Shown: positions 54,855-59,103 of the stretch, in pieces | How positions within the stretch are numbered: the first letter of the stretch is position 1 | Layout: every line of letters begins with the position of its first letter | Assembly: GCA_937873515.1 (NCBI GenBank) | Contig: CALMYB010000013.1 | Span: forward strand, 248,001-312,000 | Reading direction: 5' to 3' | DNA length: 64,000 bases | Source of the DNA: an uncultured Acidobacteriota bacterium | GTDB taxonomy: Bacteria > Acidobacteriota > Blastocatellia > Pyrinomonadales > Pyrinomonadaceae | Program-made: the position numbers and the translations under genes | The notes under the pieces: generated by a model | Database searches by the model: none | What the model was told of the DNA's origin: nothing | What the model saw: only the letters and a program-made list of their open reading frames with translations

Positions 54855-55355
54855 AGAATATTTCCTTTCCCGGTCTGGTGATTACTCTTATCGGCAATTA
54901 GCGGCGAGACCGGAAATCAAGCACCGTCCAAAGTCGATCTACGCTTTCCCAATCCATCCGGTTGGAGAGGACGTCTGCGGCATCAGGCTGGCTCAATACT
55001 TGACTCTAATTTTGGCAAGAAATAAACTACAGACGCTAATTAGCCGCTTCTGTTCCATTCATACTGAGACAGAAATAGAAGGCAACCTGCTACTACAGGT
55101 TGCCTTTATTCTACGAACACAATATATCGCTGTCAAGAATATTTGGACCGCAAGTTATTGTGTACAAAAGGTTTGCGCGATTCGCGCGCGCTGTTGCGCC
55201 CTTGAAAGGCATGATCATTTCTAATTGACAAGCTTATGTACTAGTTAATGAGATCCTCCATTTACTCGATCTGAAACACCATACCGACGGGCAATAGAAC
55301 CACTCGGTCTAATTTAGCTTTGACCTTACCGGGTTGATATAATCCAAAAGTTTCG
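54855..55355. other. AT-rich non-coding stretch
   Basis: About 500 bp without a credible gene. Short open frames here have no family and run across the strong hairpin at 55079-55106. A TATAAT hexamer (55338-55343) lies just before the gene at 55356, which would make the transcript nearly leaderless. Nothing else recognisable. Confidence 0.6.
55079..55108. terminator. Strong orphan hairpin with terminator shape
   Basis: An 11-bp perfect stem AAGGCAACCTG / CAGGTTGCCTT with a 6-nt loop is followed on the plus strand by TTTATT. On the minus strand it is followed by CTTCTATTTC. There is no gene ending just upstream on the plus strand, so it may end a small RNA or be left over from a lost gene. 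Confidence 0.6.
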
Positions 55356-55766
55356 ATGAGTAGGCACGAATACAGGTTAAAGGCGATCTTGAGTGCGTTG
55401 TTGGCGGTGGTATCGCTGCTCGCGCTTTCGGCGCCGACCTGTCTTTGCGCCCATCACGAAGAGAGGGCCGCCGCGTCGGCACCGTCCTGCCACGAACCGC
55501 AAAGTGAGAATTCCGAAGCTCTTGAAGGTCTTGCCGCCGAGAGCGATTGCATCTGCATTTTCGCGGAAAGGCCGTCGATCGCGGATAAGTCCACACCGGG
55601 AAAAACCGTCAAAGATGCTGCGGCCCTTGTTGAAAGGCCGATCGTTCCGATCGGAAGTCTTACCGATAGGCAAACCTTCACAAAGATCGAACGATCGCAA
55701 AAGATAGCTGCGCATCCTTTCGAACCCGAACCAAAACTCCCTCGCGGCCCGCCGCAATTGGCTTAG
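55356..55766 (+). CDS. Small Cys/His-rich exported protein
   Basis: A 136-aa protein with a signal peptide (residues 1-31, ends about LCA) followed immediately by Cys-Ala-His-His-Glu, then Ser-Cys-His, and later Asp-Cys-Ile-Cys. This cysteine/histidine set is metal-binding in appearance. The C-terminal half is Pro-rich. I do not recognise a family. The next gene, 143 bp downstream on the same strand, carries a copper-type domain, and similar small exported proteins are often encoded beside copper-handling genes. A metal-trapping role is an inference. Confidence 0.65.
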   Translation: MSRHEYRLKAILSALLAVVSLLALSAPTCLCAHHEERAAASAPSCHEPQSENSEALEGLAAESDCICIFAERPSIADKSTPGKTVKDAAALVERPIVPIGSLTDRQTFTKIERSQKIAAHPFEPEPKLPRGPPQLA

Positions 55767-55908: not shown

Positions 55909-57840
55909 GTGAAAAAGATCATACTACTTGCGGTGATCACGGCCGCTTTTGTTACGGCCGCGTTCGCGCAGCACCAGCCTTTCACGCTGGTTTCGAGCGC
56001 AGCGAAGACGATTACCTTTGATGAATTGCTCGCGGCAGAAAAGACGCGCGACCTCGGCGTAAAAGGTGAAGGCACGCTTACTTTCTCAAAGAAAGAGATA
56101 CGCCTCGTGATCGCAACCGGCCCCGAGAGCGATATGCTCTCGTATCGCATTCAGGGAATGCGAAACCCGACACTCGTTGTGCCCGAAGGAACACGCCTCA
56201 AGATCCTTATCGTTAACAAGGACAGTGATATGTGGCACGATCTGCGGATCGGACACGTGATGGGTGAATTTTCGGCCGATCCGACGCTTGCGATGACCGC
56301 GGGTTCTGTAAAGCTCGAACCGGCCGGCAGCGGCAAGACTTGGCATGCACAGGAACTCGTCATTCAGGCGAATGAAGCAGGCAGCTTCAAATACTTTTGC
56401 AGCGTTACAGGCCACGCGAAAGGCGGAATGTGGGGAACCATAAACGTCGGTGCGGCAACGGAGAAAGTGCCCGCAGCCGAATCGATGCCGGCGGGCCACG
56501 ATCATCACAAGATGATGGAAAACGAAAAGACGACTTCTGCGCCAACGCCGACACCGACACCGTCAGCCGAGCAGGACCACAGCGGCCACAATATGTCGAG
56601 AAAGGGCGATGACGATCAGAACGGTATGGTAATGGCCTCGACCGTCAATATCGGCGACCCGATGAGCCGCGAGAGTTCAGGAACGGCCTGGGTACCGGAT
56701 TCGACACCAATGTACGCCTATATGAAGCACTTCAAGGATGGCGGAATGTTCATGCTGATGGGCTCAGCGTTCTTTCGCTACACGGCTATCGGTTCGTCGC
56801 GCGACGTTTCGGTCGCGGGCAAGGGCTCGCGTTCGCGTTTTGACGCGCCGCATATGCTGATGGCGATGTATTCGCGGCCAGCCGGCAAGAACGGCCAGAT
56901 CGGCATCCGCACGATGTTCAGCCTCGATGCTCTGACGCAGCGTGGTTACGGCTATCCGCTGCTCTATCAATCGGGTGAGCAGTTCCACGGCCAGCCCGTG
57001 CACGACCGGCAGCATCCGCACGATCTCGTCTCGGAGCTTGCATTCACCTATTCGTATAAGTTCGACGACAAACGTTCGGTGTTCGTTTATGCAGGGCTGC
57101 CCGGCGAACCTGCACTCGGCCCCGCGATGTTCATGCACCGCACTTCGGGAGCGAACAATCCGGACGCACCGATCTCGCACCACTGGCAGGACGCCACGCA
57201 CATCACTTGGGGCGTTGTAACCGCCGGAGTATCATTCGGCAAAGTGAAGTTCGAGGCGAGTGCCTTCAACGGCACGGAACCGGACGAGAACCGTTGGGCA
57301 TTCGACCGACCGCGGTTGAATTCCTTTAGCGGGAGGATCTCCTGGAATCCGACGCGCGACCTTTCGTTCCAGATCTCGCACGGCTATCTGCGAAACCCCG
57401 AGCCGCTCGAACCTGATCTCAAGATCCTTCGCAAGACGACTGCCTCGGCGATATACAACCGCCCGTTCGGGAAGGATAAGAACTGGGCAAGCACATTCGT
57501 CTGGGGGCAGAACTACGGCAACGGCGAGCGGTCGAACGCATTTCTCTTCGAGAGCAATTTTGATTTTCAAAAGAATGCGATCTTCGGCCGCCTGGAACGC
57601 GTCGAGAAATCAGCCCACGAACTCGTGCTCGACCATTCATTTCACGGCCCGATGTATTGGGTCGGCGCTTACTCGATCGGCTATGTTCGCGATATCTACA
57701 GCAAGAAAGGCGTCGATGTCGGCCTGGGCGGTATGTTGACAGCGAACTCGAACCCCGTAGCTCTAACGCCCGTTTACGGCGGAACTCGGCACGGCGGCTG
57801 GCAGATCTTCCTGCGGATCCGCCCGTCGAAAATTATGTAG
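55909..57840 (+). CDS. Cupredoxin fused through His/Met-rich linker to a beta-barrel protein
   Basis: A 643-aa exported protein (signal peptide 1-20) in three parts. Residues about 40-180 are a plastocyanin-like cupredoxin with complete type 1 copper ligands: His110 (SDMWH), Cys164 (KYFC), His169 (VTGH) and Met174 (GGM). Residues about 190-240 are rich in His, Met, Pro and Thr (GHDHHKMM, APTPTPTPS, DHSGHNM), the kind of linker that binds copper loosely. Residues 240-643 form a strand-rich domain with HMLMAMYSR, YHQD-like QPVHDRQHPHDL and HGGWQIFLRIRP, fitting an outer-membrane beta-barrel like CopB-type proteins. GTG start at 55909 has a GGAG site. Probably handles copper at the envelope. Confidence 0.82.
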   Translation: MKKIILLAVITAAFVTAAFAQHQPFTLVSSAAKTITFDELLAAEKTRDLGVKGEGTLTFSKKEIRLVIATGPESDMLSYRIQGMRNPTLVVPEGTRLKILIVNKDSDMWHDLRIGHVMGEFSADPTLAMTAGSVKLEPAGSGKTWHAQELVIQANEAGSFKYFCSVTGHAKGGMWGTINVGAATEKVPAAESMPAGHDHHKMMENEKTTSAPTPTPTPSAEQDHSGHNMSRKGDDDQNGMVMASTVNIGDPMSRESSGTAWVPDSTPMYAYMKHFKDGGMFMLMGSAFFRYTAIGSSRDVSVAGKGSRSRFDAPHMLMAMYSRPAGKNGQIGIRTMFSLDALTQRGYGYPLLYQSGEQFHGQPVHDRQHPHDLVSELAFTYSYKFDDKRSVFVYAGLPGEPALGPAMFMHRTSGANNPDAPISHHWQDATHITWGVVTAGVSFGKVKFEASAFNGTEPDENRWAFDRPRLNSFSGRISWNPTRDLSFQISHGYLRNPEPLEPDLKILRKTTASAIYNRPFGKDKNWASTFVWGQNYGNGERSNAFLFESNFDFQKNAIFGRLERVEKSAHELVLDHSFHGPMYWVGAYSIGYVRDIYSKKGVDVGLGGMLTANSNPVALTPVYGGTRHGGWQIFLRIRPSKIM

Positions 57841-58040: not shown

Positions 58041-58346
58041 ATGAAGTTACCAGGTGGAATGGATCTCGGTTCGATGATGCGGCAGGCACAGCAGATGCAG
58101 GAGCAGATGAGCCGCGAGATGAAGAATCTGGTCGTCGAGGCGGCAGCAGGCGGCGGCGTTGTAACGGTGAAAATGCGGGGCGATTTCGAGGTGCTGGGTG
58201 TTACGATCTCGCCCGATCTAGTCAAAGACGGTGATGTCGAGATGATCCAGGACCTCACGGTCGCGGCCCTCAATGAAGCCCGCCGCAAGGTCGAGGAAGC
58301 TCTCAAAGGCCAACTCGGCGGAATGCTCCCGCCGGGAATGATGTAG
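58041..58346 (+). CDS. ybaB: YbaB/EbfC nucleoid-associated protein
   Basis: A 101-aa DNA-binding dimer of the YbaB/EbfC family. The features are the Met-rich start GGMDLGSMMRQAQQMQEQM, the AAGGGVVTVKMRGDFEV core and EALKGQLGGMLPPGM at the end. An AAGGAG site precedes the ATG. As in many bacteria it is upstream of recR, although here 142 bp of repeat DNA separates the two. dnaX is not seen upstream. Confidence 0.96.
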   Translation: MKLPGGMDLGSMMRQAQQMQEQMSREMKNLVVEAAAGGGVVTVKMRGDFEVLGVTISPDLVKDGDVEMIQDLTVAALNEARRKVEEALKGQLGGMLPPGMM

Positions 58347-58482
58347 GTAATGGTGAATGGTTAATTGTGAATGGTTCATTGCGACTTGATGGTTGTTGAT
58401 GGATGATCCTGAATTGCAGACGACACTGGTCTGCGTTGACGACCGTTCACTATTCACAATTCACCATTAACAATTCACCGTT
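58347..58482. repeat. Palindromic ATGGTGAATGG repeats before recR
   Basis: The ybaB-recR gap is filled by motifs such as AATGGTGAATGGTTAATTGT (58350-58376) and their reverse complement ATTCACAATTCACCATTAAC (58453-58472). The two arms bracket a unique middle of about 75 bp. A related set lies after recR (59108-59315), so this is an intergenic repeat family of the genome, not a CRISPR. Confidence 0.8.
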
Positions 58483-58488
58483 TTCTTT

Positions 58489-59103
58489 ATGTTGGATTAC
58501 TCTGAACCGGTCGCAAAACTGATCGACGAATTCAAACGCCTGCCGGGCATTGGCGGGAAATCTGCACAGCGCCTTGCATTTTATGTGTTGCGGCAACCGG
58601 AGGCAGACGTTGCGGCTTTTGCGCGTTCGTTGCTTGAGGTAAAAGAAAGGATCGTCTTCTGTTCGGTTTGCAACAATTTGACGGATGTCGATCCTTGTCT
58701 TTACTGCGCAAATCCAAAACGCGACCGTTCGCAGATCTGCATTGTGGAAGAGCCGTACAATCTCGTTGCCATTGAAAAGACGCGCTCCTACAAAGGGCTT
58801 TATCACATCCTGCATGGCTCGCTGTCGCCGATCCGAGGCATCGGGCCGGACGAACTGATGCTCAACAATCTTCTACCGAGACTGCGGCCTGAGAATAATG
58901 ACGGTGTAGAGGTAAAGGAGATAATCGTCGCGACCAACCCAACGACCGAGGGCGAAGCGACGGCGAATTACATTGCGCGTCTATTAAAGCCTTTGGGAGT
59001 TCGCGTTACGCGGATCGCTATGGGAATGCCGGTCGGCTCTGACCTGGAGTTTGTCGATGAGGTAACTATGGACAAGGCTCTCACGAATCGGCACGAGATC
59101 TAG
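58489..59103 (+). CDS. recR: Recombination mediator RecR
   Basis: A 204-aa RecR, which with RecF and RecO loads RecA on gapped DNA. The helix-hairpin-helix part (RLPGIGGKSAQRLAFYVL), the Cys4 zinc finger (CSVCNNLTDVDPCLYC), and the Toprim domain (ICIVEEPYNLVAIEKT and ...GSDLEFVDEVTM) are complete. Length typical. It is the next gene after ybaB on the same strand, in the usual order. Both sides carry inverted ATGGTGAATGG-type repeats, unusual for a conserved pair. Confidence 0.97.
   Translation: MLDYSEPVAKLIDEFKRLPGIGGKSAQRLAFYVLRQPEADVAAFARSLLEVKERIVFCSVCNNLTDVDPCLYCANPKRDRSQICIVEEPYNLVAIEKTRSYKGLYHILHGSLSPIRGIGPDELMLNNLLPRLRPENNDGVEVKEIIVATNPTTEGEATANYIARLLKPLGVRVTRIAMGMPVGSDLEFVDEVTMDKALTNRHEI

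Follow-up and report, generated by a model that had tools for sequence, protein, structure and literature searches.

Copper passage across the outer membrane is poorly known outside the Proteobacteria, and the direction of transport is disputed even for PcoB. PcoB barrels work together with the multicopper oxidase PcoA (PMC12509749, PMC9210255). The His/Met-rich N-terminal tail of PcoB is required for copper resistance (PMC12509749), and the protein has been reported to facilitate copper uptake (PMC9210255). A second related system is Cyc2, in which a heme domain is fused to a 16-strand porin and the heme site consists of a CXXCH motif with an upstream AXPXFAR[Q/K][T/Y] motif (PMC8406198).

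The window, which is the whole stretch of 64,000 nucleotides of acidobacterial DNA that was analysed, encodes a protein in which a rusticyanin-like cupredoxin is joined to a predicted outer-membrane barrel (Table 1). Such a barrel, copper genes in the neighbourhood of family members, a disordered His/Met-rich N-terminal region (residues 184-238 here, long tails in the relatives L009, L010, and L013) and a tie to a cupredoxin-fold partner, which is PcoA in the case of PcoB, are all shared with PcoB/CopB. In contrast to the 12 strands and about 200 residues of PcoB/CopB, the window barrel comprises 16 predicted strands in about 390 residues, its family has an invariant set of six histidines, and the partner is a fused single type 1 cupredoxin instead of a multicopper oxidase. 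The CopB profile PF05275 does not match the window protein at E values up to 1, nor is it among the families matched by 79 members of the barrel family at 0.1, and a genomic multicopper oxidase partner as for PcoB/CopB is missing in 18 of 18 fusion genomes. Because family profile, strand number, and genomic multicopper oxidase all fail, the protein was not filed as a member of PcoB/CopB; the best reading is that the barrel would work like PcoB/CopB with no homology detectable.

With Cyc2, the protein shares the arrangement of a small N-terminal redox or metal domain and a 16-strand porin in one polypeptide. However, the N-terminal domain is a copper domain and not a heme domain, the CXXCH and AXPXFAR motifs are absent, and the sole cysteine before the barrel is the copper ligand C164. 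The context is one of metal detoxification, and the barrel is highly conserved, whereas that of Cyc2 is poorly conserved. The likeness to Cyc2, judged from motifs and published description, concerns the layout only. The first-pass annotation had named no described protein of this layout, and the literature searched, outside which most subscription papers lie, likewise yielded neither a cupredoxin-porin fusion nor this barrel, an absence that is not proof.

Domain layout and copper ligands

The open reading frame starts with GTG, ends with TAG, and contains no internal stop codon. Its start codon is shared with the 94%-identical gene of locus L032, and orthologues in related genomes agree with it in start and length. 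The coordinates and residue numbers of the first-pass annotation are correct. The encoded polypeptide consists of a signal peptide, a rusticyanin-like cupredoxin, a disordered His/Met/Pro linker, and a C-terminal barrel domain. A full-length AlphaFold2 model (pLDDT 80.5, pTM 0.64) contains the cupredoxin, the disordered linker, and sixteen strands.

Table 1. Features of the cupredoxin-barrel locus; positions refer to the window
Feature	Position	Strand	Basis
Upstream gene; small secreted-type protein with C-x-H, C-H, C-x-C and C-terminal R-x-P-P	55356-55766	+	conserved next to barrel gene
Cupredoxin-linker-barrel gene, 643 residues	55909-57840	+	ORF list and orthologues
Signal peptide, residues 1-20 (...TAAFA/QHQ), without lipobox	55909-55968	+	sequence inspection; model helix 2-19
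Rusticyanin-like cupredoxin domain, residues 21-182	55969-56454	+	profile and PDB matches; strands in model
His110 codon, type 1 copper ligand	56236-56238	+	rusticyanin alignment; identical in 10/10 fusions
C-x4-H-x4-M ligand loop with Cys164, His169, Met174	56398-56430	+	alignments
Disordered His/Met/Pro-rich linker, residues 184-238	56458-56622	+	pLDDT < 50; varies in homologues
Barrel domain, residues 241-643, with 16 predicted strands at 280-639	56629-57837	+	models; Porin_4/BBP2 matches in relatives
Strands 1-3 with conserved M282, M318, M320, M336 on the face of R290/R334	56746-56919	+	alignments; probably lumen-facing by parity
Long loop 338-373 with invariant E357, H369, H371	56920-57027	+	model and alignments
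Long loop 397-435 with invariant H410, H424, H425, D428, H431	57097-57213	+	model and alignments

Rusticyanin is the best match of the N-terminal domain in both NCBIfam (TIGR03095, E 2.3e-15) and the PDB (2cak, E 5e-11). Fold and four copper ligands are the same: H110, C164, H169, and M174 align with the copper-binding positions of rusticyanin, which places a His-Cys-His-Met set within a cupredoxin fold, as judged from the alignment and the strands in the model. All four ligands are identical in the ten aligned fusions, so that the complete type 1 copper site noticed at first reading is borne out and its ligands are conserved in homologues. The domain differs from rusticyanin in that its score of 57.1 bits is far below the TIGR03095 equivalog cut-off of 146.7 bits, in the residue following the first histidine ligand (Asp instead of Ser86), and in being tethered to a barrel, whereas rusticyanin is free.

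The segment behind the cupredoxin is indeed a metal-rich linker, predicted to be disordered. It is dispensable for the layout, since it is nearly absent in L036 and L053.

Predicted barrel and its conserved residues

For the C-terminal domain, a 16-stranded outer-membrane barrel of porin topology is predicted, in line with the barrel-like domain proposed earlier and in contrast to a soluble fold of residues 240-643. When modelled alone, the domain reached a pLDDT of 87.7 and a pTM of 0.88, and 16 antiparallel strands over residues 280-639 were obtained in this as well as in the full-length model. In the model, turns of 2-5 residues are found on one side and several loops of 15-39 residues on the other, which corresponds to the usual porin pattern and would place both ends in the periplasm. 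Even strand number, short turns, and long loops are porin-type features of the model, from which closure of the barrel is inferred. The alternation of hydrophobicity along the strands exceeds that of shuffled strands (3 of 2000 shuffles were as high). Among 79 relatives, Porin_4 is matched by 18 (best 3.5e-8) and BBP2 by 6, and these weak profile matches as well as the strand and loop pattern are shared with such porins. In contrast to them, the barrel of the window protein has no match among the Pfam and NCBIfam models, and its family has metal-type invariant residues and N-terminal metal modules. A profile built from all family members found no match in the PDB.

Invariant residues of the barrel are H369, H371, H410, H424, H425, and H431 together with E357, D428, and E457. 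Within the barrel, conservation in alignment A2 is highest in the loops 338-373, 397-435, and 454-471 (0.80-0.85 versus 0.65 for the strands), which is the reverse of the usual porin trend; as the A2 loci had been fetched by patterns containing some of the six histidines, conservation was rechecked on pattern-free sets. All nine residues are kept in the 28 rows of A1, which stem from a pattern-free whole-protein search, and in 17 of 17 further pattern-free members down to about 34% identity. Nearly all of them are lost in the far paralogues L152, L153, and L154 (27-29% identity), which constitute a natural control for the function of the six-histidine set. M282, M318, M320, and M336 hardly vary, and either His or Met occupies position 284. 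By strand parity, the conserved methionines share the face of R290/R334 and therefore probably line the pore. The six histidines, E357, D428, E457, and the conserved methionines offer a directly mutable set of residues.

Spread, partner modules, and gene neighbourhood of the family

The barrel family is widespread; neither Pfam nor NCBIfam has an entry for it. Of 297 Acidobacteriota genomes sampled, 69 encode the barrel, and a search of a species-level genome collection gave at least 540 loci, among them loci from Bacteroidota, Verrucomicrobiota, Armatimonadota, and further groups; the viral contigs searched contained no relative. In L106, a barrel of this kind lies on a contig assigned to the betaproteobacterium Azovibrio restrictus, amid otherwise Bacteroidota matches, which may be due to a binning error or to transfer.

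Most members have a His/Met-rich N-terminal tail alone, and the barrel is far commoner without a cupredoxin than with one. An HMBD module is present in 14 of 79 members, a CusF-type domain in L028, and a C-terminal YtkA domain in L041, while a cytochrome c domain precedes the barrel in L016 and L019. These last two belong to other Acidobacteriota of the same class and possibly represent a heme counterpart of the copper fusion. In L011 and L014, the barrel follows two tandem Cys-rich regions with about eight cysteines each (CC...C..C) and no Pfam match. In the barrel tree, the cupredoxin fusion forms one clade of Pyrinomonadaceae-type Acidobacteriota plus a separate case in Bacteroidota (L053), and within the fusion clade the cupredoxin was lost twice (L004 and L005, both full-length). 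L039 was rejected as a further loss, its gene being cut by the contig end. One fusion clade, two losses, and the separate case mark the barrel as the core, to which the cupredoxin was added; the latter is not required, since the barrel persisted in both losses. Thus, the earlier interpretation holds for copper ligands, metal-rich linker, and porin-like barrel, but the cupredoxin turned out to be an optional add-on to a large copper-associated barrel family with a six-histidine site of its own. Most likely, the periplasmic metal-handling piece of this barrel family has been exchanged many times in evolution. The natural fusions also point to candidate periplasmic partners of copper barrels. In the Bacteroidota MAG with L053, a free rusticyanin-like cupredoxin is encoded at 106-690, 30 bp upstream of the fusion at 721-2553.

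The small gene at 55356-55766 directly precedes the barrel gene not just in the window but also in seven named fusion loci, which makes eight loci in all; its product was assigned to neither a Pfam nor an NCBIfam family. In Bacteroidota and Verrucomicrobiota, different small Cys-rich genes are found in front of the barrel gene. A ybaB-recR-type pair (58041-59103) follows directly downstream of the window barrel gene. Seven of the named loci likewise have a recR-type gene downstream of their barrel gene, so that the fusion often occupies one chromosomal position. A strong terminator-like 12-pair hairpin with T-rich flanks (55079-55106) lies in the gap that precedes the two-gene unit; scans for repeats and promoters around the window gene revealed nothing above chance.

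No copper ATPase or copper regulator adjoins the barrel gene in the window, but family-wide, barrel genes usually adjoin heavy-metal genes. An HMA domain is encoded by 23 of 143 upstream neighbours compared to 2 of 136 genes lying farther away in these loci (Fisher 1e-5) and HMBD by 8 of 143 compared to 0 of 136, in a sample consisting mainly of relatives without cupredoxin. On an annotated Pontibacter plasmid, a relative is encoded between a Cu-translocating ATPase and a gene for a four-helix copper-binding protein. A heavy-metal ATPase and a MerR regulator are encoded near a relative on a Sphingobium plasmid, as is a MerR regulator on a second one; all three plasmid relatives are annotated solely as "hypothetical protein".

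The window genome encodes two Cu-ATPases, and a search of it yielded neither a CopB match nor a multicopper oxidase. The multicopper oxidase domain PF07732 is present in 39 of 119 genomes of the host's family and in 15 of 34 genomes whose barrel lacks a cupredoxin but in none of the 18 fusion genomes (p 6e-4), and the exclusion is also seen within the genus (0/14 versus 11/27, p 0.007). After pairing on an rpoB tree, in which the row of G324 has an artefactual very long branch and is probably in the wrong frame, every informative independent pair runs in the expected direction (2-4 pairs opposite-way, 0 same-way), though with p >= 0.125 this is not significant. As independent pairs are too few for significance, the exclusion is a lead and not proof. 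It offers a way to test whether the function of PcoA or CueO can be taken over by a single cupredoxin.

Possible roles of the fusion protein

With roughly even confidence, the protein can be regarded as a copper channel of the outer membrane to which the partner that handles copper in the periplasm is fused as a domain. After secretion, the C-terminal barrel would insert into the outer membrane with the N-terminus in the periplasm, where the cupredoxin on its flexible His/Met tether would pick up copper that is probably delivered by the Cu+ ATPases of the genome. The cupredoxin would then present the copper to the mouth of the barrel, and the ion would pass a wall lined with Met in strands 1-3 as well as a His/acid site to which the two long loops, folded into the lumen, contribute. 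In this scheme, we infer copper to be the ion, transport to be directed outward, the loops to lie within the lumen, and the cupredoxin to hand over to the barrel. Furthermore, the cupredoxin might stand in for the multicopper oxidase (PcoA) used by PcoB-type barrels.

The identity of the ligands, the barrel model, the nine invariant residues, the His/Met exchange at position 284, the HMA and HMBD neighbours, and the plasmids with copper or heavy-metal genes argue for such a channel. HMBD, CusF, and cytochrome c, the N-terminal modules of relatives, all serve metal binding or redox chemistry and also count in its favour, as do the lack of a multicopper oxidase in fusion genomes, the two Cu-ATPases of the window genome, and the need of PcoB for its His/Met tail. 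Against it count the absence of adjoining copper genes in the window, with a metal context that stems mainly from relatives without cupredoxin, the two losses of the cupredoxin, and an exclusion of the oxidase that is not significant after pairing. Moreover, a surface metal site is conceivable because the six histidines sit in loops that are extracellular by default. Somewhat more tentatively, the whole family may consist of copper channels with a conduit of six histidines and methionines, distributed over several phyla and equipped with an exchangeable delivery module, in which a blue-copper domain would replace, in the acidobacterial clade, the multicopper oxidase needed by such barrels elsewhere.

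Uptake instead of export, with the barrel admitting copper and the tethered cupredoxin buffering or scavenging it in the periplasm, is unlikely: the genes next to relatives mostly serve detoxification (regulators of the MerR or AraC type, Cu-ATPase, HMA proteins), although a high-affinity periplasmic domain beside a pore suits capture as well as release, and PcoB, the closest working analogue, is reported to facilitate copper uptake (PMC9210255). It is rather improbable that the protein is an electron conduit in the manner of the fused porin Cyc2, with the cupredoxin as redox centre that accepts electrons from a metal ion outside the cell, for instance Fe(II). The layout of Cyc2 (PMC8406198), the fact that rusticyanin is its partner in acidophiles, and the two relatives with a cytochrome c domain fit such a conduit, but most members have only His/Met tails or metal-binding modules and lack a redox centre while the His set of the barrel is kept, and the window protein lacks both motifs of Cyc2.

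That the barrel handles another metal (Zn, Ni, or Ag) or is a metal-dependent surface enzyme, with the cupredoxin as an accessory sensor or sink, is very unlikely, for although His/acid sets can bind several metals, the HMA and HMBD neighbours are not copper-specific, and highly conserved long loops also occur in outer-membrane enzymes, the conserved methionines and the exchange at position 284 favour Cu or Ag, the ligand set of the cupredoxin is copper-specific, and one annotated relative lies between two copper genes.
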